From the NCBI GenBank assembly GCA_017551645.1, contig JAFZLE010000099.1:1-20327 (forward strand): 20,327 nucleotides of DNA, in the 5' to 3' direction. Under the pieces are notes generated by a model. That model ran no database searches. It had not been told where the DNA came from and was given only the letters and a program-made list of their open reading frames with translations. Each line of letters starts with the position of its first letter. Position 1 is the stretch's first letter. The stretch is from Clostridia bacterium (GTDB taxonomy: Bacteria > Bacillota > Clostridia > Christensenellales > Aristaeellaceae). Both the position numbers and the translations under genes were made by a program. Shown in pieces: positions 207-14,190 of this stretch.

Positions 207-1268
207 TTACCAGTCCTTCTTCACCTGTTCAAGGTCGATCACGCACACCTGTCCTATGCCGTTCTCGTCCGGATTGGAGAACAAGATCTTGTCCCCCGCG
301 CGGTTAAACGAAGGATGCTGGTGGTCCGCGCCGGTCTTGCAGGAGCCGGTAGTGGCGATGAGCTTCGCCTTTTTGGTCGCCCGCTCCACAAGCACCACGC
401 CTTCCTGAACGGTGGTGCCCAGGTAGCTTATCCTGTCCGCGCACAGCCACTTGCGGTCGCGGCTGATGCAGGGGTGCAGCAGCTGGGTACTGGTAGCGGC
501 CACGTCGAAATGCCGGCCGTCCTTGTCGCCAATTATGATGTTGCCTGTGTGGACCTCGCCCTTGCTGCCGTCCACGAAGCCCGCGGGATCCAGCTTCATA
601 AGCGCCATCTCCTGCCCGTCGCTGCTCCATACCTCGTGGGTTATCCATTCGGACGGATGCTCCACATAATAGGGGCGCACATACCTTTCCTTCACGTCGA
701 ACATCCACGTGCGCTGGAAGGCGTCGCCCTCGGTCTCGTGAATGTAGAAGATCAGGTTCTCGTCAGAAGGGCAGATCTGGGCGTGGCCCAGCCGGTAGTC
801 GCTCTGGTACACGACCTCGGCTTCCTTGCCGGGGTCAAGTATCACCAGCCCGTAATACTTGTTTGCCAGATGGTAGCTGCACGCGATGCGCCCGGTGTTC
901 GCGGCGGTCAGATGCCCCGTGATTTGTCCTCCTCTGGGCAGGTCGCCGACCTTGGTCATCTCAAGCGTGTCCAGATCGACCGCGTACACCTCGGTTTCGT
1001 TTTTGCAGGTGTAGCCTATGTTCTTCTCCCTGTCGGTTGCGAAGCCCCGGTAACTGTAATCCGTCACCCGCTGAAGCTCCCCGGTCTCCACATTGGCGCG
1101 GTAGCAGCCGCCGTCCGTCCAGCCTTCCAGCTGCTGCTTCATGAAGAAGAAATACTTGTCGTCGGTGGAAAAGTTTTCACAGGTAAAATACAGTTTGCTG
1201 TTGCGCTCCGGCCCGAATGCGTACTGCCTTACCTCGTAGCCCGTTATCTTGTCGCGGTAAACCTGCAT
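207..1268 (-). CDS. Oligogalacturonate lyase-like seven-bladed beta-propeller (PL22-like)
   Basis: The 353-residue protein resembles oligogalacturonate lyase (Ogl, PL22), which cleaves short and unsaturated galacturonides in the cytoplasm to a keto-deoxyuronate. Repeating propeller-blade patterns run along the whole length (for example ADRISYLG, NIIIGDKDG, KILFSNPD). Candidate active-site elements are YRLGHAQ (about 158-164), WITHEVW (His211), LLHPCISRD (His265) and GADHQHPSFN (His316, His318). In the characterised Yersinia enzyme a metal is held by a similarly spread His/Gln set near the C-terminus; equating the residues here is my inference. It is somewhat shorter than the roughly 390-residue classical enzymes and lacks a signal peptide. 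An AGGGGGAG ribosome binding site precedes the ATG. It lies between the deacetylase and the acetylesterase in the pectin operon. A non-catalytic TolB-like propeller is the main alternative. Confidence 0.68.
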   Translation of the reverse strand: MQVYRDKITGYEVRQYAFGPERNSKLYFTCENFSTDDKYFFFMKQQLEGWTDGGCYRANVETGELQRVTDYSYRGFATDREKNIGYTCKNETEVYAVDLDTLEMTKVGDLPRGGQITGHLTAANTGRIACSYHLANKYYGLVILDPGKEAEVVYQSDYRLGHAQICPSDENLIFYIHETEGDAFQRTWMFDVKERYVRPYYVEHPSEWITHEVWSSDGQEMALMKLDPAGFVDGSKGEVHTGNIIIGDKDGRHFDVAATSTQLLHPCISRDRKWLCADRISYLGTTVQEGVVLVERATKKAKLIATTGSCKTGADHQHPSFNRAGDKILFSNPDENGIGQVCVIDLEQVKKDW

Positions 1269-1296
1269 GGTGATCTCCCCCTTTTAATACACAGCG

Positions 1297-2097
1297 TTAT
1301 ATTATCAGCGTCTCCCCCGCCTTCACGCACACGGCGGGGCCGTCGTTTACGGATATATAGCAGTCTCTGGCGTTGGGATTATATACAAACGAATTGTCAG
1401 CCGCGAAGCACAGGCGCCCGAAATCGTCCATGCAGTCCATGAACTCGATGTTGGTGCAGTACCAGATGTCCTCTTTACCGCCCATCATATCGCAGAAGCG
1501 CTCCATCAGCTCCCAATTGTTCTTGTCGTCAAACTCGTAAGAATGCCCCCACACGTACATCAGATACAGGTACTGACGCTTGAACAGCCCCAAAAACTGT
1601 TCGCCCAGTTCCAGCAGCCTGTGGTTGTGGTGGCACGTCGCCTGCCAGCGGTAAGGATTCTCCGGCAGGGCAAAAGAATCGCTGGAGCCCACCACGCGGC
1701 TGTAGCGTATGCCCAGCGCGGGCAGCAGCTCCTCTATCTCTTTGGATACGGAACCGTTGGGGTAGCTTAAGCCCCTTACGGGATAGCCCGTAAACTGTTC
1801 CAGCGCCTTCCTGTCATCCAGTACTTCCTGGGCGACTTCGGAAATGGGACAGCGGGCTATGGTCGGGTGCGTAACGGTGTGGCAGGCCACTTCATGGCCC
1901 TTGTACAGTTCCGGTATCTCTTCCAAAGGCACCCGGTCGCCCCTGCTTATCAGGCCGCTGTTGATGTGGAATGTGCCCTTGATGCCGTTTTTATTGAATA
2001 TCTCTATCAGCCGCCGGTCCTGGGTGCGGCCGTCGTCGTAGCTCAGGGTGAGCGCTTTATGCTTTCCGCCGGGAAAGCAGCAGTAAACTCTGTTCAT
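1297..2097 (-). CDS. Polysaccharide deacetylase-like protein, NodB/CE4 domain
   Basis: The 266-residue protein carries the metal-dependent CE4 fold. Motif 1 is LTLSYDDG (Asp21, Asp22), motif 2 is the metal-binding CHTVTHP (His73 and His77), motif 3 resembles RGLSYPNG (about 108-115), and a late His occurs in WGHSYEFDD (His185). CE4 enzymes remove N- or O-acetyl groups from chitin-like, peptidoglycan or xylan-type polymers. No signal peptide or membrane segment precedes the domain, so unlike most CE4 cell-wall enzymes this one should be intracellular. It sits between the sugar-binding protein and the lyase-like gene of the same operon, which suggests an acetylated imported oligosaccharide as substrate; that is inference. 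About 30 residues after the catalytic core are unassigned. AGAGGAA lies upstream of the ATG. Confidence 0.82.
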   Translation of the reverse strand: MNRVYCCFPGGKHKALTLSYDDGRTQDRRLIEIFNKNGIKGTFHINSGLISRGDRVPLEEIPELYKGHEVACHTVTHPTIARCPISEVAQEVLDDRKALEQFTGYPVRGLSYPNGSVSKEIEELLPALGIRYSRVVGSSDSFALPENPYRWQATCHHNHRLLELGEQFLGLFKRQYLYLMYVWGHSYEFDDKNNWELMERFCDMMGGKEDIWYCTNIEFMDCMDDFGRLCFAADNSFVYNPNARDCYISVNDGPAVCVKAGETLII

Positions 2098-2115
2098 AAG
2101 GTTCCTCTTCTTGGC

Positions 2116-2161
2116 AAAAAGGTCCTGTTCACAGGAAGGGCTGCCGTTTGCACGGCAGCCC
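2116..2161 (-). terminator. Hairpins after the solute-binding protein gene (partial terminator or mRNA-stabilising element)
   Basis: Nineteen bases after the binding-protein stop codon, the leftward transcript can form a perfect 10-bp stem (2138-2147 with 2152-2161, arms GGGCTGCCGT and ACGGCAGCCC, 4-base loop). It is followed by a small 5-bp hairpin (CCTGT/ACAGG at 2124-2135) and, three bases on, by five U residues (2116-2120). Such structures commonly raise the amount of binding-protein message relative to downstream enzyme genes by protecting a 3' end or causing partial termination. The operon continues to the deacetylase, so full termination is unlikely. Confidence 0.6.
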
Positions 2162-2179
2162 CTGATGCTAGTCGATCAA

Positions 2180-3688
2180 TTACTGATGGTCAGCCTGGTA
2201 CAGCTCGTTGAGCTCGCTGGTCACGGCGTTGCCGCCCTGCTCAGCCCACCTGTCCCACTCAGCGCGCAGCTCGTCCTCGGTGATGAGGCAGGCGATGTAC
2301 TGCACAGCCGCGTTGGAGATGATGTCGTCCAGTTCCTTGCCGTGGGCGACATAAGTCTCTCTGGTGTAGGGCAGGCAGGGATTGGCTACCGCGTACTTGG
2401 CGTACTCACGGTTCAGTTCGTCGTAGCGCTCGCGGGCAAACACCCAGGCTTCGCTGCCGACGTACTTGGCTCTGGGAGACTCGAGGTCGCCGGGAACGCC
2501 CATGCCAAGCTGGTTCAGATTCTGATGATACTTGCCTTCGTTGGTGCTGTAGTCGCCGTCTTCGGGAGTGTAACGATAGCCTTCTTCGTCCACTTCGTAG
2601 GTCACGCCCTGCAGACCGGCGTTGATGACGGTCTGGCCGTCGGGGCTGTTGCACCAGTCGAGGAACTTGAGCACCTTGGGCAGGTCTTCTTCCTTAACGG
2701 ACTTGGTCACCAGCACGGCGCCGGCGTAGCCGGGGTTCTGGGGCCATACGCTGATGGTACCGTCTTCCTTCTCAAGGCCGCATACGCTCATCCAGATCAG
2801 GCCGGTGGCGCCGGCGTTGTCGTCGAACCACTTCTGCTGACGATGGGCGTTGTCCATGCAGTCAAAGCGCATATAGGCCTTCTCCTGGCGCTCAATGGGA
2901 TCCCAGTCGGCGGTGGAGATCTGCGCGAAGTTGGGGTCGATGCCGCCGATCTCGTAGAGATGGCGCAGCCAGTTAAGACCTTCCAGATAGGCGGGATCGG
3001 TGTGGGCGGGATATACGTTGCCGTCCTCATCGATGCCCCAGGTGTTGGGGGCGCCCATGGCCACGGTGATCACGCTGATGGTGCCCGCGGTGTAGGAGCA
3101 CATATTCAGGCAGTAGGTGTCTTCCTTGTAGGTGGCCAGCGCCTCAGCCAGCTCGGTCAGCTCTTCGATGGTCTCGGGAGCCTTGTCAAAGCCCAGCTCG
3201 TTGGCGATGTCCCAGCGGTAGTAGATACCGCCGCGGGGGAAGGCACGTCCGCGGGGCAGACCGTACAGCTTGCCGTCGATGGACATGTTCTGATATACGG
3301 CAGCGGAACCGGCGGCCAGGTAAGGATACTCTTCGGCGTCCTTCACATAGTCGGTCAGCTCCCAGAAGCCGCCCGCCCTGGCGGTGTCGACGACCACGGG
3401 GGCCTTCGCGTCGGTGGCGGAGATCAGCATGGCCTTGTTGTCATCGGTCAGCTCGGTGTTGAAGATGGTGGAATACTGATCGTTGGCACCCCACTTGATC
3501 TGCAGTCTCACGCCGGTCTGGGCTTCGATGTAGTCAAAAATGGGGTTGTTCTCCTGCTGGAAATCGATCTCAGAGGGGAACTGGGGCAGCAGCACGGTGA
3601 CTACGAAGGGCTCTTCCTCAGCCATGGCAATGCTCATGGCGGTCAGGGCCATCACCAGCGCCAGCATAAGGGCAACCAGTTTCTTCAT
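2180..3688 (-). CDS. Extracellular solute-binding protein of a carbohydrate ABC importer (LplA/YtcQ type)
   Basis: The 502-residue protein begins with a clear signal peptide (MKK, hydrophobic run, cleavage probably after AMA at residue 23, before an acidic EEEPF). No cysteine lipobox is present. The mature part has the layout of family-1 oligosaccharide-binding proteins of the LplA/YtcQ group: PFVVTVLLPQFPS strand, the FDYIEAQTGVRLQIKW lobe-1 segment, LYGLPRGR, AYMRFDCMDN, KFLDWCNSPDGQ and a C-terminal RAEWDRWAEQGG helix. This size class binds oligogalacturonides or rhamnogalacturonan oligosaccharides in characterised relatives. It works with the two permeases transcribed before it. A GGAGG ribosome binding site lies nine bases before the ATG. 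A long open frame on the opposite strand (2111-3691) is a codon-bias shadow. Role is firm, ligand inferred. Confidence 0.9.
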   Translation of the reverse strand: MKKLVALMLALVMALTAMSIAMAEEEPFVVTVLLPQFPSEIDFQQENNPIFDYIEAQTGVRLQIKWGANDQYSTIFNTELTDDNKAMLISATDAKAPVVVDTARAGGFWELTDYVKDAEEYPYLAAGSAAVYQNMSIDGKLYGLPRGRAFPRGGIYYRWDIANELGFDKAPETIEELTELAEALATYKEDTYCLNMCSYTAGTISVITVAMGAPNTWGIDEDGNVYPAHTDPAYLEGLNWLRHLYEIGGIDPNFAQISTADWDPIERQEKAYMRFDCMDNAHRQQKWFDDNAGATGLIWMSVCGLEKEDGTISVWPQNPGYAGAVLVTKSVKEEDLPKVLKFLDWCNSPDGQTVINAGLQGVTYEVDEEGYRYTPEDGDYSTNEGKYHQNLNQLGMGVPGDLESPRAKYVGSEAWVFARERYDELNREYAKYAVANPCLPYTRETYVAHGKELDDIISNAAVQYIACLITEDELRAEWDRWAEQGGNAVTSELNELYQADHQ

Positions 3689-3724
3689 TAAGGGTTTCCT
3701 CCTTTTTGATTTGTTATCTTGTCA

Positions 3725-3738
3725 GCGGCCTGAGCCGC
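3725..3738 (-). other. Short GC hairpin between permease and binding-protein genes
   Basis: A 5-bp inverted repeat (GCGGC, CTGA loop, GCCGC) lies in the 160-base gap between the permease stop and the binding-protein start. It has no U-run, so it is not a standard terminator. It could help define a 5' end for the binding-protein message, but it is short enough to be incidental. Confidence 0.3.
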
Positions 3739-3787
3739 GGATAACCTTTGTTTGCTGCAGAATTCGCTGCGGCACAAGAGTTGTAAC

Positions 3788-3822
3788 GGATTGCCGCGGC
3801 GCTGATGCGCCTCGCAATGACG
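3788..3822. repeat. Interspersed REP-like palindromic repeat (GGATTGCC...CTCGCAATGACG type)
   Basis: The 35-base element starts GGATTGCCGCGGCGC and ends GCGCCTCGCAATGACG. The arms pair imperfectly around a TGAT loop: GGCGC with GCGCC next to the loop, then TTGC with GCAA across a small internal loop. The end sequences match a short repeat type I recall from many bacterial genomes, usually lying between genes. It sits in the gap between the permease and the binding-protein gene, alongside the shorter hairpin at 3725-3738. Only one copy is present in the window, so repetition in this genome is inferred from its resemblance to that class. Confidence 0.6.
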
Positions 3823-3848
3823 TTTGTATTTGTTCGCAATGAACGGAA

Positions 3849-4799
3849 CTATCCTTTGAGCGCGCCCACCATGACGCCCTTCACGAAGTACTTCTGCAGG
3901 AAGGGGTACACACACATGATCGGAACGGTGGAAACGACTATGACCGCCATCTTCACGGACTGCTCCGGCGGCTTTACGAACTCGGGGTCCATGTTGGACA
4001 TATCGCCTGCCGAGCCCGTAGCCAGTATGATTATCTCGCGCAGCAGCACCTGCAGGGGCCACTTTTCGGGAGTGCTGGTCATATAGATCATGGCGGAGAA
4101 GTAGCTGTTCCAGTGGCCCACCGCGTAGAACAGGCCGAAGGTGGCCAGTACGGGCAGCGACAGGGGCAGCACTATCCTTATCAAAACGCCCACGTCGTTG
4201 CAGCCGTCTATGGAAGCGGATTCCTCCAGTTCCTGGGGTATGCCCTGGAAGAAGTTCTTGACTATCATCATGTTGTACGCGCTGATGGCGCCGGGCAAAA
4301 GCACCGACCAGTACGTGTTTTTGAGTTTCAGCACATTGGCTACGACTATGTAGCCCGGGATCATGCCGCCGGAGAAGAACATGGAGATTATGACCAGGTT
4401 GAGGAAGAAGTTCCTGCCCCTTAAGCGCTGCTTGGATATGGCGTATGCCATTGTCACGGTAAAGAAAAGGTTTATGCCTGTGCCCGCCACCGTGATGAAC
4501 ACGGAGTTGCCGAAGCCTCGTAATATCTTGTTTGAGGAGAAGATGTACTCGTAGGCGCTGAACGATACGTCCCTGGGAAAGAAGAACAGCGGACGTGTGT
4601 TGATCTCGTACTCCGTAGCGAATGACGCCGCTATGATGTAAACGAAGGGAAGTATCGTGGTTGCCGCGACGAGGGTAAGGATTATGTAATTGAGCGTGTC
4701 GAACACTCTGCTGCCTACGGTGGCGTGCTGACCTACCGGGCCGGAGCTTTCCAGCCTTTTGCGGGCTTTATTGTCTAAAACCGCTGTCTGCTGTGCCAT
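3849..4799 (-). CDS. Carbohydrate ABC transporter permease, LplC/YtcP type
   Basis: The 316-residue inner-membrane protein has a soluble N-terminus of about 30 residues and then six predicted hydrophobic segments, beginning with LNYIILTLVAATTILPFVYI. The cytoplasmic EAA loop, which contacts the ATPase, is at about 191-216 with EESASIDGC and a following IVLPLSLPVL. Length and order fit the second permease of importers that take up pectin-derived oligosaccharides. No ATP-binding subunit is encoded nearby; in Bacillota such systems usually share an MsmX-type ATPase encoded elsewhere. GGGAGG lies seven bases before the ATG. The gene follows the LplB-type permease by 15 bases, so they form one transcription unit. 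Confidence 0.92.
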   Translation of the reverse strand: MAQQTAVLDNKARKRLESSGPVGQHATVGSRVFDTLNYIILTLVAATTILPFVYIIAASFATEYEINTRPLFFFPRDVSFSAYEYIFSSNKILRGFGNSVFITVAGTGINLFFTVTMAYAISKQRLRGRNFFLNLVIISMFFSGGMIPGYIVVANVLKLKNTYWSVLLPGAISAYNMMIVKNFFQGIPQELEESASIDGCNDVGVLIRIVLPLSLPVLATFGLFYAVGHWNSYFSAMIYMTSTPEKWPLQVLLREIIILATGSAGDMSNMDPEFVKPPEQSVKMAVIVVSTVPIMCVYPFLQKYFVKGVMVGALKG

Positions 4800-4814
4800 A
4801 ACGGAGCCTCCCTT

Positions 4815-5771
4815 CTAATACAGACCCTGCTCGCCCAGCAGGTGTGCAATCTTGTTGGAGGTCAGCACCATGCTCACGCTCACCACGGCTTTCATAAGGC
4901 CGATGGCGGAGGCGTAGGAGAACTGGCCTGCCTGTATGCCCTGTTGGTACACGAACACGTCCAGGGTCTGGGAGACTTTGTAGTTAAGCGGGTTCGTCAT
5001 AAGGATAAGGTGGTCGTAGCCCGTATCCAGCACGCTGCCCATGCGCAGGATCAGCATGAGCACGATGGTGGAGCGGATGGCGGGCAGGGTGATGTGCCAC
5101 AGCCTGCGCAGGCGCCCCGCGCCGTCCACCATGGCAGCTTCGTACAGCTGGGTATCCACATTGGTGAGGGCCGCCAGGAAGATGATGGTGCCCCAGCCGG
5201 TCTCCTTCCAGATGGTCTGGCCGATTATCATCCAGCGGAAGGTGTTGGGAGAGCCCATGTAGTTGATGGCGGTGCCGAGCAGCTGCTGAGTGAGCTTGTA
5301 CACTATGCCGCTGGGCCCGAACATAACGAACGTGATGGAGACCACGATGACTATGGAGATGAAATGCGGCACGTACAAAAGCGTCTGCAGCAGCTTTTTG
5401 TACTGGAGCGAACGCATCTCGTTGAGCAGCAGGGCGAGTATGATGGGCGCCGGGAAATACAGCACCAGGTTCATGAAGCTGAGTATCAGCGTGTTGATAA
5501 GATAATCGACCCATGTCTTGAACGAGAAGAAGTAACTGAACCACTTCACGCCGACCCACGCGCTGCCCAGCACGCCCGTGTAGGGATTGTAGTTCTCAAA
5601 CGAAATAAGAATGCCGAACATGGGCAGGTATTTGAATATGACAAAGTAGACCAGACCGGGCAAAAGCAGCAGATACAGCCACTTGTCCCGTCTGACTTCC
5701 GAGAACAGGGTCCGCCAGTACTTGGCGCCGCTGCCGTAAAGCGCTTTGCGCTCCATCGCCTTGATGCTCAT
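4815..5771 (-). CDS. Carbohydrate ABC transporter permease, LplB type
   Basis: The protein has the features of the first permease of an LplA/B/C importer: WLYLLLLPGLVYFVIFKYLPMFG as first membrane segment, PAPIILALLLNEMR, LLYVPHFISIV, and the EAA loop QLYEAAMVDGAG followed by HITLPAIRST at about 209-236. Six membrane spans are likely. The open frame extends four codons upstream to a TTG at 5783, but the ATG at 5771 gives MSIKAMERKAL with a TTGGA-like site at suitable spacing, while the TTG has the AAAGG directly abutting it; I therefore prefer 5771 (318 residues). It is separated from the GH105 gene before it by about 60 bases and pairs with the downstream permease as a heterodimeric channel. 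Confidence 0.9.
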   Translation of the reverse strand: MSIKAMERKALYGSGAKYWRTLFSEVRRDKWLYLLLLPGLVYFVIFKYLPMFGILISFENYNPYTGVLGSAWVGVKWFSYFFSFKTWVDYLINTLILSFMNLVLYFPAPIILALLLNEMRSLQYKKLLQTLLYVPHFISIVIVVSITFVMFGPSGIVYKLTQQLLGTAINYMGSPNTFRWMIIGQTIWKETGWGTIIFLAALTNVDTQLYEAAMVDGAGRLRRLWHITLPAIRSTIVLMLILRMGSVLDTGYDHLILMTNPLNYKVSQTLDVFVYQQGIQAGQFSYASAIGLMKAVVSVSMVLTSNKIAHLLGEQGLY

Positions 5772-5833
5772 TCGCGCATCCAACCTTTCGTATTTGGTGA
5801 GGGTGTGCCGATTTAGAAACAGGAGCCGGTTTG

Positions 5834-6877
5834 CTATTCTCTTTGCATAAGTTCCGTGAGCATGAGGAACGTGAGGCCCTGGCCGTATGCGGTGGGCGTC
5901 ACGATGATGTCTTTATAATGCTGCAGGTTATGTCCCATGCCGGTGCCGCCGCTCACGCCCTGCACCGCGCCGGTCTCGTCGATCTGCTCAAGCACGGCTT
6001 TTGCGGACAGCATGCCCATCGGCCCGTAGGTCTCCTGGGTCAGCCAGCCCAGCCTTACGCCTTTCAGAATGCCGTAGGCGATGGCGGCGGTGGCGCTGGT
6101 CTCGCAGTAGGTCTCCTCCACATCGATAAGCGTGGTATACAGGCCGTTAACCCGCTGGTACTTCCACAGCGCAAGAGCCTGGTCCTGCCACGCGCTCTTT
6201 ATCATGCGCATCGCCGCGCTGCCGCTTTTGGTGATGTCGTAAAGCTCTATCGCGGACACGGTGAACCACGCGTTGCCCCGCGCCCAGAACGCCTCGGCGA
6301 AATTGTGCCGTCGGTCAAACGTCCAGCCGTGGTAGAACAGCCCGTTAACTTTGTTTTGGAGATAGCGGATGTGGATAAGGAACTGATATTCCGCCTCGTC
6401 TATAAGCTCCTGTCTGCCCAGCACGACGCCCGCCTTGGCAAGGAACAGCCCCACCATGAACAGCGTATCGCACCAAAGCTGCTGATAGTGTTTGTTCCAC
6501 ACGGTGCAGTGCTGCAGTCCGCCGTATTCGGTGCGGGGCATCTCGCCCAGCACCCAGCCGAGCCACTCCTCTATCACCGGGAGATACTTTTCGTTTTTCG
6601 TCTCCTGATACAGGCAGGTAAGCGCCAGCACGGGCGCCACGGTATTCACGTTCTTATGCGGCTTCTCCGGACGGGACAGCATGTCGTCGTACCAGGAGGT
6701 GAGATAGTCGAGTATCTTCGTGTCGCCGCTTAACTGATAAGTCTTGTATATGCCGTATAGGGCTACGCCGGTAGGCCATTCCCAGTTGTTCATGGTGAGA
6801 TGCCCGCGGGAAGGGTCGTTCCCGTCCGCTCTTTGCAGCATCCCAAGCACCTTGTCTGCGGTCTCCTTGTAACCCAC
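5834..6877 (-). CDS. Unsaturated rhamnogalacturonyl hydrolase, GH105 (copy A)
   Basis: The 347-residue cytoplasmic enzyme fits the GH105 (YteR/YesR) family, an (alpha/alpha)6 barrel that hydrates and releases the 4,5-unsaturated galacturonate left by rhamnogalacturonan lyases. The presumed general acid Asp137 is in QQLWCDTLFM, and the second conserved residue His183 is in YHGWTFD; their 46-residue separation equals Asp143/His189 of YteR. Other family signatures are FWARGNAWF (about 197-205), ETSATAAIAYG and YGQGLTFLML at the end. The start codon is GTG at 6877 with GGAGGG seven bases upstream. It is the first gene of the leftward operon, about 30 bases after the likely transcription start. 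Family very sure; RG-I substrate inferred from neighbours. Confidence 0.93.
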   Translation of the reverse strand: MGYKETADKVLGMLQRADGNDPSRGHLTMNNWEWPTGVALYGIYKTYQLSGDTKILDYLTSWYDDMLSRPEKPHKNVNTVAPVLALTCLYQETKNEKYLPVIEEWLGWVLGEMPRTEYGGLQHCTVWNKHYQQLWCDTLFMVGLFLAKAGVVLGRQELIDEAEYQFLIHIRYLQNKVNGLFYHGWTFDRRHNFAEAFWARGNAWFTVSAIELYDITKSGSAAMRMIKSAWQDQALALWKYQRVNGLYTTLIDVEETYCETSATAAIAYGILKGVRLGWLTQETYGPMGMLSAKAVLEQIDETGAVQGVSGGTGMGHNLQHYKDIIVTPTAYGQGLTFLMLTELMQRE

Positions 6878-6899
6878 CGAATCGCCCTCCAGAAAATGT

Positions 6900-6913
6900 C
6901 ACAAATCCATGTG
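6900..6913. promoter_or_regulatory. Inverted repeat CACA-N6-TGTG at the start site of the leftward operon
   Basis: The repeat covers the expected +1 (about 6908) of the promoter driving the GH105/ABC operon. A repressor bound here could block transcription. The arms are only 4 bp, so this is a weak candidate operator. Confidence 0.3.
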
Positions 6914-6914
6914 T

Positions 6915-6943
6915 ATTATATGGAAATACCCGTGATTTGTCAA
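6915..6943 (-). promoter_or_regulatory. Sigma-A promoter of the leftward rhamnogalacturonan operon
   Basis: On the minus strand, TTGACA (6938-6943) and TATAAT (6915-6920) are separated by exactly 17 bases, a perfect consensus promoter. Transcription would begin near 6908 and reach the GH105 GTG after about 30 bases. A perfect promoter on a substrate-utilisation operon implies strong control by a repressor or by catabolite regulation. I see no convincing CcpA site. Confidence 0.85.
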
Positions 6944-7030
6944 GGGGCGGAGGCCGATTTCGCTTTGTCTTTTGCGCGCGCATTTCTGTCCTTACAGTGT
7001 CAAAACATACATAGCGGTGCCATTTTCGCC

Positions 7031-7059
7031 TTGTTATATTTTCACCCGTGTTGTATAAT
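7031..7059 (+). promoter_or_regulatory. Sigma-A promoter of the rightward lyase-like/GH105 pair
   Basis: TTGTTA (7031-7036), a 17-base spacer and TATAAT (7054-7059) match a good sigma-A promoter. The start would fall near 7066, about 27 bases before the ATG at 7093. Its spacer contains ACCCGTG (7044-7050), a heptamer also found at 6928-6934 inside the spacer of the opposite promoter. Confidence 0.8.
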
Positions 7060-7070
7060 AGCTTAAGCTA
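7059..7070. promoter_or_regulatory. Perfect 12-bp palindrome TAGCTTAAGCTA, candidate operator
   Basis: The palindrome begins at the last base of the -10 box and covers the predicted transcription start of the rightward pair, a classic place for repressor binding. No regulator gene with an obvious link is adjacent; the closest regulators in the window are the TetR-type proteins about 7 kb away. Confidence 0.5.
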
Positions 7071-7092
7071 AACTCACAGGCTCGGGGGAATT

Positions 7093-8772
7093 ATGCTTAC
7101 ACATAAAGATCTATGGCTCAAAGGCGTTCAGGACGCCGTTTCCGACGCGCTCCGGCGCCAGTGTACGGACCCATCAGACCGGTTTTACGGCACGATAGAA
7201 GGCGTGGCGGGCGGTTATACCAATCCCCACTCCGCGCTGTATACCGCGCGCACGTTCCTGCAGGCGTACTACTGTGACGGGCAGAAATACTTCCATGATC
7301 CCCTTATGCTTGAAAGGAGCATACCCGCACTCGAATACGCCCTGCGGCTTCAGCACGACGACGGCACCATGGACCTGCTGGAGACGAATTTCCACGACGG
7401 CGCGGAGACCTCCTTTACCGTGGGCACCATTGCCCCCATCGCGCTGCTCATGAAGGCGAAAACCCAGAACACTCCCCCGGAAAACCGGGCATGGGAGCTT
7501 ATGTACAGGTATCTGGAAAACTGCGCCCGCGGCGTCGTGGACGGCGGTTTCCACACTCCCAACCACAGGTGGGTGATGAGCGCGGCGCTGGCGTTCCTAT
7601 ACAAGATCACGGGATACGCGCCCTGTCTTTACAAGCTGCGCCATCTGCTGGACGAAGGCATAGACTGCGATGCGGAAGGCGAATTCACCGAGCGTTCCAG
7701 CGGCACATACAACCTCGTCTGCGACCGGGCGCTGATATTCATAGCCGAAGCGGCAGATATGCCCGAAATGCTCGACTATGTAAAGCGCAACCTCAAAATG
7801 ATGACCATGTATTTCGAGCCGGACCTGACCATAAACACCATGAACTCCACCCGTCAGGATGCGGGCACTTCTCCCGACTGGCGCATCTACTACGGCCTTT
7901 ACCTGTACATGGCGCTCAGGACCCGGGATGCGGAATTCATCTGGATCGCCAACAGGATGCTGGAGCAGAGCGCCGGCGCGATGAGCTGGGCTGCCTCCAA
8001 AGCGCCCGGTCAGATGCTGCCAGGCTTCGAGTATCTTCCCTTCGTGCTGCTGGATCCGGCGCTCGACCCCGGCTGCATGGAGACGGAGGGCACTCCCCCG
8101 TGCTTTGACTATGTCAAGCACTTTGAAAACAGCGGCGTCGTGCGTATGCGCAAGGGCGACACCTCCCTCACGCTTATCCAGCACAACCCCATGTTCGCCA
8201 AGCTCAAGCTGCTCAATCACTGGGTAGGTCTGCGTTTCTGCGGCACTTTCTACGCGAAGGGCCAGTTCGAAGCCCAGGAGATCACCCGCGACGGAGAGTT
8301 TTTCATACTCACCTACCGCTGCCGCTGGGGCTACAAAGGCCCGCTGCCCGAAAAACCCGCCTCTTCCGTATGGAGGGAGATGGACCATTCCTCAAGGCCG
8401 AACGTGTTCATGCAGGATTATATCGTCCGCGTGCGCATGCGCTTTACCGGCAGAGGCCTGGAAGCGCATATAACCACCGAAGGCGTTGAGCGCGTGCTGT
8501 GCAAGCTGGAGCTGCTGCTGGAAAGCGGCGGGCACTACATGACCTCCGACAGCGAACTGCGCGCCCGTCCCGGGGATTACGTGTACCAGAAATGCCCGCG
8601 CGCCGGCTACCGTTACAACGACTCCAGGACGCTGGTCATTGAGGGCGGCGCATTTAACGAGCCCTACGGAGAAAACATGCGCGGCAGCGTTCCCGTTCCG
8701 GACGGCGTGTTTACCGTGTGCTGCACGTTTGAAACGCCCATCGACCACACTGTCAGGCTCAGTTTCGTTTAG
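7093..8772 (+). CDS. Unassigned (alpha/alpha) toroid plus beta-sandwich protein, likely polysaccharide lyase or hydrolase
   Basis: I do not recognise a named family for this 559-residue soluble protein. The first ~320 residues are helical with repeated aromatic/hydrophobic pairs (NPHSALYTARTFLQAYY, SIPALEYALRLQ, DWRIYYGLYLYMALRT), as in toroid lyases. The last ~220 are strand-rich and look like an antiparallel beta-sandwich, as in heparinase II/III-like and PL8-like enzymes. Candidate catalytic features are FHTPNHRW (Asn157, His158, Arg159), GEFTERSSGTYN (Glu200, Arg201, Tyr206), which resembles the DGxxxERSxxYH element of heparinase II/III-type lyases, and NSTRQD (Arg254). There is no signal peptide. 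A GGGGGA site precedes the ATG, and the stop overlaps the ribosome binding site of the following GH105. The pairing with an unsaturated-uronyl hydrolase supports an intracellular exolytic lyase on uronate oligosaccharides; this is inference. Confidence 0.6.
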   Translation: MLTHKDLWLKGVQDAVSDALRRQCTDPSDRFYGTIEGVAGGYTNPHSALYTARTFLQAYYCDGQKYFHDPLMLERSIPALEYALRLQHDDGTMDLLETNFHDGAETSFTVGTIAPIALLMKAKTQNTPPENRAWELMYRYLENCARGVVDGGFHTPNHRWVMSAALAFLYKITGYAPCLYKLRHLLDEGIDCDAEGEFTERSSGTYNLVCDRALIFIAEAADMPEMLDYVKRNLKMMTMYFEPDLTINTMNSTRQDAGTSPDWRIYYGLYLYMALRTRDAEFIWIANRMLEQSAGAMSWAASKAPGQMLPGFEYLPFVLLDPALDPGCMETEGTPPCFDYVKHFENSGVVRMRKGDTSLTLIQHNPMFAKLKLLNHWVGLRFCGTFYAKGQFEAQEITRDGEFFILTYRCRWGYKGPLPEKPASSVWREMDHSSRPNVFMQDYIVRVRMRFTGRGLEAHITTEGVERVLCKLELLLESGGHYMTSDSELRARPGDYVYQKCPRAGYRYNDSRTLVIEGGAFNEPYGENMRGSVPVPDGVFTVCCTFETPIDHTVRLSFV

Positions 8773-8783
8773 GAGGCACATAA

Positions 8784-9833
8784 ATGGATAAGACCGCATT
8801 GGATGCCGCCATAGCCAAGATAATCTCAGGCATCACTGATAAAAACAATCCCATGGCCTTCACGGCAAGGGACGGTTCCCATTTCATGGACGCGTGGGAC
8901 TGGTTCCAGGGCGTGGCGCTGTTCGGGCTGTACGAATACTACCGCGACAGCGGGGACAGAAAGATCCTTGAATACCTGACGAACTGGTTCGACGAGCGCA
9001 TGGACCGTCAACCCACGAAGAATATAAACAGCATGTGCCCTCTGCTGACGCTCAGCTATCTTTATGAGATCACCGAAAGGCAGGACTATCTGGCGGTCTG
9101 CTCCGAGTGGGCCGAGTACGCCATGGCCTCGCTCCCCCGCACGGAGGAAGGCGGCTTTCAGCATATCACCATAGATTCGGACAACTACATGCAGCTGTGG
9201 GACGACACGCTTTACATGACGGTGCTGTTCATCGCCCGCATGGGCCAGCTGCTCAAACGCTCCGACATGACCGAGGAAAGCGTGCGCCAGTTCCTGGTGC
9301 ACATAAAGTATCTTACCGACACCAAAACGGGGCTTTTGTTCCACGGCTTCAACTTTGACGGCCGCCACCACTACGCAGAGGCGCTGTGGGGCCGCGGCAA
9401 CGCCTGGTTCACCGCGGGACTGGTGGATTATCTGGATATGGCCCGGATCCCGGAAGGCGTAAAACTGTTCCTGCTTTCTACGCTCGAGACCCAGGCGAAA
9501 GCGCTGAAAAAATACCAGGATGCGGACGGCATGTGGCACACACTTATAAACGACCCTGAAAGCTACAAAGAAGCCTCTGCCACCGCCGGGTTTTCCTACG
9601 GCCTTATGAAGGCGGTCAGAAAGGGCTATCTTGACGAAAGCTGCCGCGCGGCGGCGCTCAGGGGGCTTGACGCCATCATGTCCCGCATAGACGAGAACGG
9701 TCTGCTCAAAGACGTTTCCGCGGGCACCTGCTTAAGCGACAGCCTGGACTATTACCGCAATATCCGCGTAAACGCCCAGCCTTACGGCCAGTCCATGGCT
9801 CTATTGCTGCTCATGGAAGCGAAAAAGCTGTAG
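8784..9833 (+). CDS. Unsaturated glucuronyl/rhamnogalacturonyl hydrolase, GH105 (copy B)
   Basis: The 349-residue protein is a diverged paralogue of the GH105 at 5834-6877. The presumed catalytic Asp141 lies in MQLWDDTLYM and His187 in FHGFNFD, again 46 residues apart as in YteR. The ALWGRGNAWF, EASATAGFSYG and PYGQSMALLLL blocks are conserved. It differs at substrate-site loops, for example QHITIDSDNY in place of the other copy's QHCTVWNKHY, suggesting a different neighbouring sugar. There is no signal peptide. AGGAGG, overlapping the stop of the upstream gene, sits nine bases before the ATG, so the two rightward genes form one unit and are probably expressed together. It ends eight bases before the terminator at 9842. 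Confidence 0.92.
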   Translation: MDKTALDAAIAKIISGITDKNNPMAFTARDGSHFMDAWDWFQGVALFGLYEYYRDSGDRKILEYLTNWFDERMDRQPTKNINSMCPLLTLSYLYEITERQDYLAVCSEWAEYAMASLPRTEEGGFQHITIDSDNYMQLWDDTLYMTVLFIARMGQLLKRSDMTEESVRQFLVHIKYLTDTKTGLLFHGFNFDGRHHYAEALWGRGNAWFTAGLVDYLDMARIPEGVKLFLLSTLETQAKALKKYQDADGMWHTLINDPESYKEASATAGFSYGLMKAVRKGYLDESCRAAALRGLDAIMSRIDENGLLKDVSAGTCLSDSLDYYRNIRVNAQPYGQSMALLLLMEAKKL

Positions 9834-9841
9834 ATCCATAC

Positions 9842-9885
9842 AAAAACCGCCCCGGAAGCTTTGGCTTCAGAGGCGGTTTCATTTT
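9842..9885. terminator. Bidirectional intrinsic terminator between converging operons
   Basis: An 8-bp outer stem (AAACCGCC 9844-9851 with GGCGGTTT 9872-9879) encloses an inner 5-bp stem (GAAGC 9855-9859 with GCTTC 9864-9868). Reading right, the stem's own TTT is followed by CATTTT; reading left, GGCGG is followed by five U. It serves the GH105 copy B transcript and the GH38 operon transcript, which converge here. Confidence 0.88.
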
Positions 9886-9890
9886 GCGTT

Positions 9891-12746
9891 CTATTTGACT
9901 TCGATCATCCAGATGCCGTGCGCGCGGACGGGGAACGTGACGCGCCTGGCTTTTAGCGGCAGATATTCTTCCCGCTCGTTTTCTTTCAGCGTGCGTTTAT
10001 ATGCGCAGCTTATGGGCATTGTAAACTCGATCTCGGCTTCTCCCGCCTTGCCTGCGGTCTCGTAGCCTCTCAGGATCAGGCTCCCGTCCGATTCGTCTAT
10101 GCTCGTCACGGCGACGCTGCCTCTGATCTCCTTTATCAGCCCCGCCTCCAGAGGAAGCGTGCCCGCGTGCGCGCCCACGGACTGGTACAGGATCGGGTGG
10201 TTGTTCAGGTCAGCAGTCATTTCCGGCTGCAGGCCCGTTCCCGCCCTGAGATAGAGGTTGATCTCGTGTATGCCCCTCTCCGGGTACGGGTCGGGGTTCG
10301 TGGCGGAGTTGATCAGCGTTACGGACAGCGAATCGCAGCCGAGCCTGTAGCCGTACTTGCAGTCGCTGGTCAGCGTAAGCGCCGTGCCCAGCCCGTTTTC
10401 GGCGGTAACGGCGAAGGCAGGCACGTCATTGTTCACGACTTTGCGCGTGATCCTGCCCTGGGGTATCAGGCACTCAAAGGCACCCGTGAGCGCCTTGAGC
10501 GGGCAGCGGTAGCTCAGCACGGGAATGATCTCGTGACCCTGCTCCTGCCAGTCCACCTTGAGTTCCACCCTTATCGCGTCGCTGCCCGCGTCCAGGTGAT
10601 AAGTCACTTCCGCCTTGGAAGGCACGCGGCAGATGCCGTCCATAAGGAACGTGGCCTTCACGCTCTGCCTGAGTTTGCCGTCAGCCAACGTTTTGAGCTC
10701 CACGCAGCGGTCCACTTCGTTCTCTTTGATCGTCCTGCCTATGTTCCAGGCGCTGGAGGTGGCGCGCTCGGTCTCAAGGAAGCACAGCCCCGCGCTTTCA
10801 CCCTCTTTAAGCAGGTTTACGCCCATGTTCAGGTCGATCATCTCCGTCAGCCTGCCGGTCCTGCTGTCTACGCGCGCCCGTATGATGCCGTTGTCCAGCA
10901 CTTTGTCGTCGTAGAACCCGCTGGTGCGCTCAGGCTCCAGCAGGAAGGAAGGGTAGTTTTCCGCCTGTGCCTGGTACAGCGCCACGGTGGTGTAGCCCAG
11001 CGCGGGCACTTCCGCCTCGACCAGCACGCGGAAATACATGTGATCCCAGTATTTCTGCACCTGCCTGTCCAGCAGCTGCATCCTCAGGGCTTTGCCGTCC
11101 TTGTCGCAGACCGCCAGGCGCTTGAGATCACCCGTCCAGTCCCATACAGTGAGCTCGCACACGGCTGTGCGGGCGTAAGGCAGCGTGTTGAACAGCGTGA
11201 ACGCCCTGTTAAGCCCCTTGCCCCTTTCGGGTGAAGGTGCGCCTTTGAAGCTTTCTATGCCCCAGCCCGCGCCCGCGCCTTCGCTTTGGGTGTAGCTGAC
11301 GTCTTCCGGCGCGGCAAACACTTTAAGACTAATGGTATCCAGGTTTTTACACACGGCGCTCATGGCCTGCTGGGACAGCGTATTGGTCACGGACGCGGTC
11401 TTCTGGTACAGGCCCATGGCCCATTCGCGGGAATCCTGCACGCAGGAACCGGTGAGTATGTCGTGGAAATGGGTGAACAGCACGTCCCTCTGGGCTTCCT
11501 CCAGCTTCGCCTTGTCGCATGCATGACCCGTTTGAACCTTCGCCAGCGCGGTGAGCGCGCGGGTATCGATAAGCGCGTTCTCCATGCGCCGGTTGCCCCG
11601 TTTGATGCGGCTCTGGGTAGTGTAGCATCCCTGGGCAAAGTAGTTGATTTCTTCCGTCACGACGGGTGTTTTGTCCCTGACCTGCTCCGCGTCACGGAAA
11701 TAATCCCTGAGCCCGCCAAAGCGAATAGTCGGGAACACGGGCCATTTCTGCATACGCAGGGCGGCTTCCACGTCCCTGCGGGTGGGCCCGCCGCCGTGGT
11801 CGCCCACGCCGTACACCACCATGCCCGTTTTAAGCCCACTCTGGCGCTTCACCACGTCGAACAGGCCGTGGGCGATGTGGGGCTTGATGCTGCCATTGTA
11901 CCAATTCGCTTCCTTCAGCAGCAGTATCTCCGCTCCCGACGCAGCCCGGTAGCGGTAAAGGTACTCGTCCAGGTCGTTGCCGCGGCAGTGGTACATGTAT
12001 TTGACGCCGCCGAAAGCGTCTATCTCCGGTATGGTCAGCGCATGGCCGAAAGTGTCCGGCACGAAATCCAGGTCAAACTGTTTTACGCCCCAGACCTCTT
12101 TCAGGTATTTGCGCGTAAGCTCGATGTGCTTTAACAGGCTCTCGCCGGAAGGCATGTTTTTGTCGGATTCCACCCAGCTGGTGGCGGCAACTTCCCACCT
12201 GCCCTCGTCTATGCGCTGCTTAATGCGGCGCATGAGCTCAGGGTCATATTCCTCTACGATCCTGTATACCGAGCCCTGGGACTGGGTGAACGTGAAATCA
12301 GGATACTCGTCCATTATGTCGCACATGGTGGTGAATGTGGCCAGCGTGACCGCCACGGTCTCCTGCCAGCTCCACATCCAGTTCATGTCGATGTGCGCGT
12401 GCCCCGTGAGGATGAGCTTGTAGCTCTTCGCGGCTTCCGACAGGGGCATCAGCAGTTTTTCGGCCTCTTCGCACGCCCCGTCAGTCAGCGCGCCGTCCCG
12501 GTCAAGCGCGTTTTCAAGGTATTCGAAGCAGCTTATCACCTCTTTGTCGAAAGCGCCTTCGTTTGCTTCGCTCAGCCTCAGCGCGAATTCCGCCTCGCTG
12601 AGTATGCGCTCGTTCCAGCGGGTCATGGGCGTTATGCCGTCTTTCTCGTGTACCGTCACCCCAAACGAGTATTCAAAGGCCTTTTGTTCCCTGTTGCCCG
12701 CCACACGCGTCTTCAGGCGGATAAATCTTTCAAACAGCTCTTTCAT
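9891..12746 (-). CDS. Alpha-mannosidase, GH38
   Basis: The 951-residue protein is a full-length bacterial GH38 retaining alpha-mannosidase. After an N-terminal helical region, the catalytic domain shows the zinc site HAHIDMNWMW (His118, Asp120), the nucleophile in VPDTFGH (Asp231), GVGDHGGGPTRRD (about 313-325), and FTHFHDILTGSC (His428 as the likely third zinc ligand). It continues through the middle helical bundle into the C-terminal beta-sandwich (DNGIIRARVDSRTGRL onward). It releases alpha-linked mannose in the cytoplasm; no signal peptide is present. GGGGGAG lies five bases before the ATG, and the gene follows the sialidase-like gene after 19 bases. The known substrates of this family (N-glycan or mannan fragments) do not match RG-I, so this operon may serve a different glycan from its neighbour. 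Confidence 0.93.
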   Translation of the reverse strand: MKELFERFIRLKTRVAGNREQKAFEYSFGVTVHEKDGITPMTRWNERILSEAEFALRLSEANEGAFDKEVISCFEYLENALDRDGALTDGACEEAEKLLMPLSEAAKSYKLILTGHAHIDMNWMWSWQETVAVTLATFTTMCDIMDEYPDFTFTQSQGSVYRIVEEYDPELMRRIKQRIDEGRWEVAATSWVESDKNMPSGESLLKHIELTRKYLKEVWGVKQFDLDFVPDTFGHALTIPEIDAFGGVKYMYHCRGNDLDEYLYRYRAASGAEILLLKEANWYNGSIKPHIAHGLFDVVKRQSGLKTGMVVYGVGDHGGGPTRRDVEAALRMQKWPVFPTIRFGGLRDYFRDAEQVRDKTPVVTEEINYFAQGCYTTQSRIKRGNRRMENALIDTRALTALAKVQTGHACDKAKLEEAQRDVLFTHFHDILTGSCVQDSREWAMGLYQKTASVTNTLSQQAMSAVCKNLDTISLKVFAAPEDVSYTQSEGAGAGWGIESFKGAPSPERGKGLNRAFTLFNTLPYARTAVCELTVWDWTGDLKRLAVCDKDGKALRMQLLDRQVQKYWDHMYFRVLVEAEVPALGYTTVALYQAQAENYPSFLLEPERTSGFYDDKVLDNGIIRARVDSRTGRLTEMIDLNMGVNLLKEGESAGLCFLETERATSSAWNIGRTIKENEVDRCVELKTLADGKLRQSVKATFLMDGICRVPSKAEVTYHLDAGSDAIRVELKVDWQEQGHEIIPVLSYRCPLKALTGAFECLIPQGRITRKVVNNDVPAFAVTAENGLGTALTLTSDCKYGYRLGCDSLSVTLINSATNPDPYPERGIHEINLYLRAGTGLQPEMTADLNNHPILYQSVGAHAGTLPLEAGLIKEIRGSVAVTSIDESDGSLILRGYETAGKAGEAEIEFTMPISCAYKRTLKENEREEYLPLKARRVTFPVRAHGIWMIEVK

Positions 12747-12765
12747 GGAAACTCCCCCAACAGTG

Positions 12766-14157
12766 TTATTTCAAGGCGTAGCGCCGGAAACGCTCGATCT
12801 TCCCGAATACGGAATAGTTCGCGTCGTGGAAGGAATGCGCCTGATTGTCCGCCGCGCGGGTCAGGTACAGTATGTCATCACCGTCGAAAATGAAATCCGT
12901 GTACTGGAAGCCCGTAAGCTTCGGGTCTTTGTCCGTAGCGTCTATAATGTCCGCCGCGAGGCTCCAGCTAATGCAGTCGCGGCTCACCATGAGCGAGACC
13001 AGGTTCCTGTCCAGCCGGTGCTCGTGGGAACGCAGGCGGTCTATTATGCTGTAATAACAGCGGCTTGTCTCGTCGTACTTCACCACGAATTTGGCATGAT
13101 TCCCCGGAAAATCTATGGTGCCCAGGTACGAAAGCGGTCTGTCCGGCGCGACCACTTCAAAATACATTATCTTACCGTAGCTCGGCTCGCAGTTGGCGAT
13201 CTCGTACCTCATCAGGTTTACCAGCCTGCCGTCGGGAAGCACGGTCAGGCTGCCTTCCAGCAATCCCACGCTCTTTCCCTTAGCCGCTCCAGGCCAAGTG
13301 GAATCATAGCTGACCGGCGGAGTGAATTCCCAGCTGGCAGGATCCAGCAGGTCGCTGTCCTCGGGCGCTGAGAACACCATCACATCGTGCCCGCCTTTTG
13401 CCCAGCTGCCCCATTCGCAGCTGTTCCATATCCTGCCTTTCCAGCAGACCACCGGCTGCGGGTTTTTGTGTATGCCCTTTTCCGCCCAGTGGCACGCCCC
13501 GCGCCAAAGCACGCTGGGAGGAGAGAACGTATTGCCGCCGTCAGTGGACTTGCCAATGAGCAGGTCGCCGTACTCGGTGGAGCACGCCAGCATGTAGATA
13601 TCGCCCCTGTGCACGAACAGCCTGCCCCAGAAGCAGGGAAACAGGTCGCACACCCAGTGCCACGTCCGGCCTTCGTCGTCGCTTCTGAATATCAGGCTCA
13701 GGTTCTGCGGCGCTTTGGGCCCGAACAGGTCCATGGAGCACAGCAGATGCCCCTGCGGCGCGCGTATCAGGCTGGGAGAGCACAGATACTGCCCGGAAAA
13801 GGCGTAAAATCCATCCTCCGGGTGCAGATAGTTTACCGTAACGCCGCCTCCGGCGCGTTCCCCGGTCCTGAACAGGCGGGCACGGCTGCGCTCGCCGGCG
13901 CATTCGAGCCTGAGCTCATAATCCGTATCGGGCTCAAGGCCCGTGAACTCGCAGAAGTTATCCCGGGCCACAGCCACACGCACGGCCTCTTTGTCCCTAT
14001 ACCGCAGTTCCGCTTTGACAGGTCCGCGATCCCGGGGGCGCAAAAATTCCGCCCTGACACAGTCTTTTCCGGGCACGAGACGGTCAATGAACAATCCCGC
14101 GTCTTCTGTTCCGGGCGGAACGTAAGGCTTCCAGCTCCATTGCGTATGTGGTTTCAT
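12766..14157 (-). CDS. Sialidase-superfamily (BNR/Asp-box) beta-propeller with N-terminal FN3-like domain
   Basis: The protein is 463 residues from the ATG at 14157, chosen because GGGGTGA lies five bases upstream; the frame is open nine codons further to 14184, without a comparable site. Residues about 20-98 form a fibronectin-III-like module ending in FTGLEPDTDYELRLE. A propeller follows with Asp boxes SDDEGRTW (159-166), STDGGNTF (204-211) and a weaker SRDCISW near the C-terminus, and with sialidase-like strand pairs such as SPSLIRAPQGHLL and EGSLTVLPDGRLVNL. Such proteins include exo-sialidases and several other glycosidases and lyases, so the reaction is open. There is no signal peptide, so it probably acts on imported sugars together with the GH38 enzyme encoded just after it. 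The upstream TetR-type regulator is 33 bases away in the same orientation. Confidence 0.72.
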   Translation of the reverse strand: MKPHTQWSWKPYVPPGTEDAGLFIDRLVPGKDCVRAEFLRPRDRGPVKAELRYRDKEAVRVAVARDNFCEFTGLEPDTDYELRLECAGERSRARLFRTGERAGGGVTVNYLHPEDGFYAFSGQYLCSPSLIRAPQGHLLCSMDLFGPKAPQNLSLIFRSDDEGRTWHWVCDLFPCFWGRLFVHRGDIYMLACSTEYGDLLIGKSTDGGNTFSPPSVLWRGACHWAEKGIHKNPQPVVCWKGRIWNSCEWGSWAKGGHDVMVFSAPEDSDLLDPASWEFTPPVSYDSTWPGAAKGKSVGLLEGSLTVLPDGRLVNLMRYEIANCEPSYGKIMYFEVVAPDRPLSYLGTIDFPGNHAKFVVKYDETSRCYYSIIDRLRSHEHRLDRNLVSLMVSRDCISWSLAADIIDATDKDPKLTGFQYTDFIFDGDDILYLTRAADNQAHSFHDANYSVFGKIERFRRYALK

Positions 14158-14190
14158 AGAATCACCCCGTGCAGATAATTCCACGCGTCG

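Follow-up and report, generated by a model that had tools for sequence, protein, structure and literature searches.

A large lyase-like protein family lacking Pfam and NCBIfam matches, with a possible role in degrading plant GIPC head groups

What reaction is carried out by a protein that falls into no named family and is encoded directly upstream of a GH105 gene? The question is raised by an open reading frame of 559 codons plus stop in a 20,327-nucleotide stretch of DNA (hereafter the window; Table 1) from what is probably a rumen bacterium. An original prediction, made from the sequence letters, had proposed a possible undescribed toroid/beta-sandwich polysaccharide lyase in a rhamnogalacturonan locus, with exo-lyase action inside the cell on imported oligosaccharides as a hypothesis. 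The reading frame is present and is a real gene, because a search of 5.8 billion proteins returned 2006 homologues at E ≤ 1e-3 and because, of 381 nucleotide differences from an 81%-identical gene (locus L002), 74, 50 and 257 fall at codon positions 1, 2 and 3, respectively (dN 0.12, dS 1.36, dN/dS about 0.09). A GGGGGA stretch lies upstream of the ATG. No hydrophobic segment occurs within the first 40 residues (highest 11-residue mean hydropathy, 0.44), so no signal peptide is expected, in agreement with the prediction.

Table 1. Features of the window, with positions counted from its first nucleotide.
Feature	Position	Strand	Basis or remark
Target, 559-aa putative uronate beta-eliminase	7093..8772	+	toroid lyase type by profile kinship
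Asn157-His158 codons	7561..7566	+	aligned to N-H of heparinase II/III-like lyases
Glu197-Tyr206 codons (EFTERSSGTY)	7681..7710	+	aligned to DGG..E.S..Y motif
Arg254 codon (with Asp256)	7852..7854	+	invariant; putative carboxylate binding
Arg435 codon	8395..8397	+	invariant, C-terminal half
GH105 (Pfam Glyco_hydro_88), NCBIfam name BglB	8784..9833	+	E 5.3e-89
GH105 Asp141 codon	9204..9206	+	aligned to YteR Asp, which is Asn in 2gh4
Second GH105, divergent from target	5834..6877	-	Pfam
GH38 alpha-mannosidase-type protein, convergent	9891..12746	-	Pfam
ABC sugar permease	4815..5783	-	Pfam
ABC sugar permease	3849..4799	-	Pfam
Putative solute-binding protein	2180..3688	-	judged by position and length; Pfam gave nothing at E ≤ 1
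Polysaccharide deacetylase	1297..2097	-	Pfam
PL22-like oligogalacturonate-lyase-type protein	207..1268	-	PF14583, 32.4 bits, cut-off 30 (weak)

Searches of Pfam and NCBIfam with the target protein returned no family at E ≤ 1, which bears out the claim that no named family can be assigned, and none of the best 120 of the 2006 homologues had a Pfam family. Most homologues that carried a name were called 'hypothetical protein'; among the UniRef names were 'Heparinase' and 'Alginate lyase domain-containing'. Sequence searches of the PDB found nothing significant with either the protein (best E 1.6) or a first family profile, A1 (best E 0.3). When 85 family members were compared singly with Pfam, 16 families were matched by any of them, PF07940 not being among these; the matches included Lyase_8_N in eight members (best E 0.0079), GH127 in two (best E 0.0014) and Alginate_lyase in one (E 0.041). 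The target itself has no match to the Pfam Lyase_8 profile.

Kinship to lyases emerged from comparisons between profiles. A1 reached a match probability of only 3.7% against A4, a profile of 29 heparinase II/III-type proteins (all percentages below are such probabilities). A 194-sequence family profile reached 59.6% and 50.9% against lyase profiles (41.4% and 13.3% under other settings), and a 358-sequence profile reached 53.7% against A4, 66.8% against an Alginate_lyase set and 68.8% against a Hepar_II_III set, three sets that overlap and whose matches are therefore not independent. The alignment spans target residues 92-376, and the lyase set's own PDB search led to heparinase and alginate lyase structures. 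Controls in the 358-sequence comparison scored 0.1-0.2% for reversed profiles, 0.1-0.4% for GH38, the solute-binding protein, PL22 and permease and 0.5% for GH105, the last five being easier to beat because they are single sequences, and 5.1% for a multi-sequence GH127 set. PL8, for which the family shows the weak Lyase_8_N matches given above and a profile value of 0.7% on three sequences only, was dropped as a candidate parent family.

Judged by these alignments, the family is very probably distant kin of the toroid lyases. The predicted toroid/beta-sandwich lyase type stands in this distant sense with the deep profile, but the smaller A1 profile did not recover it. A hydrolase, isomerase or other non-lyase enzyme built on an alpha-toroid scaffold would fit the GH127 single-sequence matches, whose best E value lies below that of any lyase family, and the 5.1% of the GH127 control; set against the far higher values of the lyase profiles and the alignment of the catalytic motifs, we regard it as highly improbable. 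By sequence, the target belongs to a large, undescribed, lyase-like enzyme family.

The candidate active site agrees with this kinship. Residues N157-H158-R159-W160, Y206 and R254 lie where they had been placed, but the longer motif, GEFTERSSGTYN, spans residues 196-207 and not 197-207. In two printed profile alignments, N157-H158 falls on the N-H of the lyases and E200, S202 and Y206 on their DGG..E.S..Y motif, as expected for the catalytic Asn-His and Tyr that had been proposed. Because the motif had been part of the pattern by which loci L002-L081 were picked out, conservation was assessed on 281 sequences (one of them the window's) from whole-protein searches, with proteins outside 500-620 or 540-640 residues dropped; such searches, too, are seeded by short stretches of shared sequence, and some bias in the set may remain. 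N157, H158, E200, S202, Y206, R254, D256 and R435 were found in 281/281 sequences and E197 in 280/281, while Arg435 was kept in 355 of the larger set of 358, the remaining three being gapped. The alignments end at residue 376, before the HxHxD motif of the heparinase II/III-like C-terminal domain; His432 is present in 261/281. Asn157, His158 and Tyr206 would presumably serve as neutraliser, base and acid, like their counterparts in lyase families, which makes Tyr206 a putative acid/base.

Ten proteins of the window (reading frames within about 210-14184) were scanned against Pfam. Only 11 bases (GAGGCACATAA) separate the target's stop codon from the ATG of the GH105 gene on the same strand, so co-transcription, which had been stated as a fact, is likely. 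The partner is a GH105 protein as claimed and keeps the YteR aspartate, which we take to be the catalytic one, so that unsaturated-uronyl hydrolase activity is plausible. NCBIfam names the same protein beta-galactosidase BglB (428 bits against a cut-off of 420), and its substrate therefore need not be an unsaturated uronide; the papers searched did not reveal the basis for this name. Counterparts of all the neighbouring genes in Table 1 occur at L002 with 85-97% identity. Two further observations concern this genome: a 472-residue protein at 12766-14184 has weak BNR/Asp-box traces (E 0.096), is possibly sialidase-like and was found only in the window among 87 loci compared, and a heparinase II/III- and alginate-lyase-type protein distinct from the target is encoded elsewhere in the genome (G000:C311; L107, L131), in an open frame of 672 residues.

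The neighbours bear directly on the predicted substrate. An exo-lyase on pectin-derived oligosaccharides, from rhamnogalacturonan I or homogalacturonan, would suit the PL22-like protein, the deacetylase and the two GH105 genes, and a GH78-type rhamnosidase lies near relatives at 4/87 loci. However, the PL22 match is weak, the ten scanned proteins include no rhamnosidase, PL9, PL11, GH28 or other pectin-backbone enzyme, GH38 and the inositol genes of relatives do not suit galacturonan, and some relatives point instead to hexose-glucuronate-inositol glycans. We consider a pectic substrate quite unlikely, and the description of a rhamnogalacturonan locus finds no support among the proteins scanned.

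Relatives were gathered from several sources. A two-peptide-pattern scan of named genome contigs found 460, of which the best 80 are L002-L081. In protein searches the family occurred in 7/299 genomes of the window's phylum and 9/60 close-relative genomes (own genome included in both), in 24/391 genomes of the class of G142 and in 48/118 of the family of G219, which is Paenibacillaceae (a protein of genome G105 is a 100% match to Paenibacillus kandeliae). Further loci comprised 6 stretches, 20 loci from 17 of the 24 G142-class genomes and 20 from 20 of the 48 in the G219 family. Context was counted over 126 loci, many of them on short stretches, with labels set by score thresholds of our own choosing; these are not 126 genomes, because nine targets of L254-L273 are identical to targets of L002-L081. 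Direct-neighbour Pfam tallies (70 + 71 proteins, 141 of 144) are rich in housekeeping genes, which leaves many loci without a catabolic signal, and 46 of the 126 have no labelled neighbour.

Overall, GH105 was found at 32 of the 126 loci, GH38 at 17, U234 (a small protein of 220-262 residues) at 14 and at least two inositol genes at 12. The inositol-linked loci all fall in two deep clades; 9 of them have GH105, 4 have GH38 and 4 have U234. GH38 and U234 occur together at none of these 12, and GH38, U234 and inositol genes together at 0 of 126. At L181, the target gene lies between GH105 plus ROK and IolC-IolD-IolB-IolE-IolG, with IolC, IolD, IolE and IolG above their NCBIfam cut-offs and IolB below its own; inositol genes elsewhere were named by similarity to this set. 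L075 combines five inositol genes with GH38, the target gene, GH2 and, two genes downstream, D-lyxose isomerase. L073 has GH105, IolE, IolG, transporter, U234 and IolC. L258 has five inositol genes and ROK on a stretch without GH105, and L292 has a transporter, the target gene and inositol genes, again without GH105. The gene order common to L281, L283 and L284 runs transporter, AP_endonuc_2 protein, U234 (absent from L281), target gene, GH105-domain protein, IolD, IolE and IolC, with a 4-base overlap of the target gene and the GH105-domain gene; L287 and L289 are alike, L289 lacking U234 and AP_endonuc_2.

Other genes recur beside the target's relatives. The GH105-domain protein at L281:10729-12972 has 747 residues, of which 385-735 have PDB matches and the N-terminal half none at E ≤ 0.01. 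A second unassigned protein family, of 726-734 residues, lies upstream at L055:7768-9945, L032:3973-6177, L052:7798, L060:6742, L081:7812 and L027:1; two members were scanned and had no Pfam match, and the family often accompanies uroporphyrinogen-decarboxylase-like genes, which adjoin relatives at L032:11655-12800, L060:11603-12757 and L003:11290-12444. Directly upstream of relatives at L025:7035-8876, L022:4847-6826, L024:2418-4319 and L034:8022-9881 is a heparinase II/III-like gene (by Pfam for the first three and by similarity to L025 for L034), placing two lyase types in tandem.

The inositol link was checked against 20 offset control windows, taken from as many of the genomes that supplied the loci. 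IolD matches of at least 600 bits occurred at 9/40 loci of the G142-class and G219-family sets versus 0/20 offset windows (Fisher one-sided p 0.018, kinship ignored). No inositol, GH105, GH38 or U234 gene was present in the 20 control windows, of which 4 and 2 had permease matches. Several of the nine IolD loci are close kin, and the stronger point is that the inositol link occurs in both deep clades. A quick maximum-likelihood tree of 125 rows, for which the program warned of long branches and uneven composition (L013, without a full target, was left out), set the Paenibacillaceae loci, a 45-row clade holding the inositol-linked Clostridia and a 55-row clade holding the window far apart. Inositol linkage and U234 are found in the first two, GH38 in the 45-row and 55-row clades and GH105 in all three. 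On the 88 rows of at least 15 kb, inositol linkage took 9 changes by parsimony. In sign tests that allowed for kinship, neither GH105 nor U234 was significantly associated with inositol (median p = 1; few pairs).

GH38 invites another reading, in which this enzyme would first uncover a saturated glucuronate at the chain end, from which the target, as a dehydratase, would take water across C4-C5 to give the unsaturated uronate for GH105. In the ulvan pathway P29_PDnc feeds GH105 in the same way (PMC8511951, excerpt), this enzyme had earlier been described as a lyase and modelled as toroid plus beta-sandwich (PMC6168547, excerpt), and GH38 is the target's neighbour at the 17 loci counted above. 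However, P29_PDnc needs Asp, Arg and Lys and can dispense with the Tyr that was tested (PMC8511951, excerpt), whereas the target family keeps the lyase-type Asn-His and Tyr throughout. GH38 is also found at 0/24 Paenibacillaceae-type loci, where O4 would therefore keep its hexose if no other enzyme took it off. A dehydratase seems unlikely on this evidence, and we favour elimination of the O4 substituent.

Taken together, the pooled neighbours of the family suggest hexose-alpha-1,4-GlcA-alpha-1,2-myo-inositol, the plant GIPC head group, as the best-fitting substrate. Rose cells release GIPC-derived Man-alpha-1,4-GlcA-alpha-1,2-myo-inositol (PMC4230332, excerpt). Its breakdown would call for a mannosidase, for a lyase that cuts where GlcA is substituted on O4, for an unsaturated-uronyl hydrolase that acts on alpha-1,2 linkages, and for inositol genes. 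The natural linkage of YteR is alpha-1,2. A GIPC-type substrate is quite possible, if just short of probable, for the inositol-linked clades.

U234 offers a second pointer towards GIPC. It is encoded, among other places, at L177:8241-8945, L284:8288-8956, L073:20267-20977, L057:3584-4357 and L260:8307-9011, and three members scanned had no Pfam match. In the PDB a 13-row U234 profile matched nothing but Nep1-like sequences at E ≤ 1, five in number: MpNEP2 (5.1e-4) and four '25 kDa protein elicitor' entries (0.013-0.073). A single U234 sequence reached only 0.32. Nep1-like proteins bind GIPC head groups (PMC6743777, excerpt); U234 resembles them weakly but has no signal peptide by eye and lies in catabolic operons. 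Among 118 Paenibacillaceae-type genomes, 45 had U234 and 48 the target; 35 had both, 10 had U234 without the target and 13 the target without U234 (Fisher p 9e-11, not corrected for kinship). The genes for the two were less than 3 kb from each other in 17 of these 35 (in two cases with U234 only as fragments) and lay apart in the remaining 18.

For the window's own member, a substrate can be inferred from GH38 and GH105 only. IolD had no match in the window genome (75% complete) and none above the cut-off in six same-genus genomes, which gave one weak match; of the 60 relatives, 4 genomes had IolD above the cut-off, none of them among the 9 that bear the target. In target-bearing G326 (C262, C236), IolD matches appear in several frames, as broken pieces. 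U234 was found in none of the 60 genomes, the window's included, and the same query worked in the Paenibacillaceae-type set. Mannosidase and GH105 would also suit a lyase that acts on side chains like those of xanthan (Man-1,4-GlcA-1,2-Man), with GH105 and GH38 finishing in the cytoplasm: the window holds a putative lyase with both, and the xanthan locus of P. taichungensis I5 has PL8, GH88 and GH38, one lyase being assumed by its authors to be intracellular (PMC12827396, excerpt). Yet the ten scanned window proteins include no xanthanase-type or GH94-type gene, and the inositol genes of relatives would be left unexplained, so that we hold this reading to be improbable. A GIPC-type substrate for the window's own member is itself doubtful.

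The mechanism that we infer, as to fold, chemistry, exo mode and substrate, would begin with import of a small uronic-acid oligosaccharide by the ABC transporter. Asn157, with Arg254, would neutralise the glucuronate carboxylate, and His158, Tyr206 or both would take the C5 proton; the sugar on O4 would leave, and the 4,5-unsaturated uronate remaining on the aglycone would be hydrolysed off by GH105. On sequence grounds the target probably carries out an elimination on a uronate, and it is reasonably likely to be a uronate beta-eliminase with the toroid/beta-sandwich build that works inside the cell, in exo mode, and feeds GH105. Of the predicted intracellular exo-lyase working with GH105, then, the lyase kinship, the lack of any sign of secretion and the GH105 partner stand, but the rhamnogalacturonan label is not supported.

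More tentatively, the family may account for a step otherwise lacking in an undescribed, widespread pathway by which bacteria use plant GIPC head groups, comprising a transporter, a lyase that opens Hex-1,4-GlcA-1,2-inositol, GH105, a myo-inositol operon and, in some lineages, GH38 for mannose or, in others, an intracellular Nep1-like relative as partner. The window enzyme would be another clade's version, with inositol unused or a related glycan met. GIPCs make up as much as 40% of total sphingolipids in the plant plasma membrane (PMC8099651, excerpt), an abundance by which herbivore guts and soils would receive GIPC head groups. Among the matches listed from open-licence papers we recognised none on bacterial GIPC head-group degradation or on the target family, and a term search of the main text of a review devoted to inositol derivatives and gut microbes found no mention of GIPC (PMC12482443). 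Once its substrate had a name, such a lyase family would offer a first way into this degradation, would allow 'hypothetical' proteins in Paenibacillus and gut Clostridia to be annotated and could become a tool for releasing GIPC glycans. Should the guess at the substrate prove wrong, there would still be a large family of lyase-like proteins that neither Pfam nor NCBIfam matches.

Several known systems resemble this proposal in part. The heparinase II/III-like toroid lyases (in the PDB, heparinase, heparinase III, PL17 and oligo alginate lyase) align with the target family by profile, but the target lacks a Pfam match at E ≤ 1 and the family profile, even at E ≤ 10, does not reach any of their sequences in the PDB; PL12, PL15 and PL21 are presumably further families of this type. 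P29_PDnc, like the enzyme proposed here, supplies GH105 with an unsaturated uronate and has a toroid plus beta-sandwich by homology model, but it differs in its essential residues and in its predicted signal peptide and periplasmic location (PMC8511951 and PMC6168547, excerpts). The intracellular xanthan side-chain pathway shares the logic of lyase, unsaturated-uronyl hydrolase and alpha-mannosidase, but it uses another lyase family and, in the excerpted text, mentions no inositol genes (PMC12827396).
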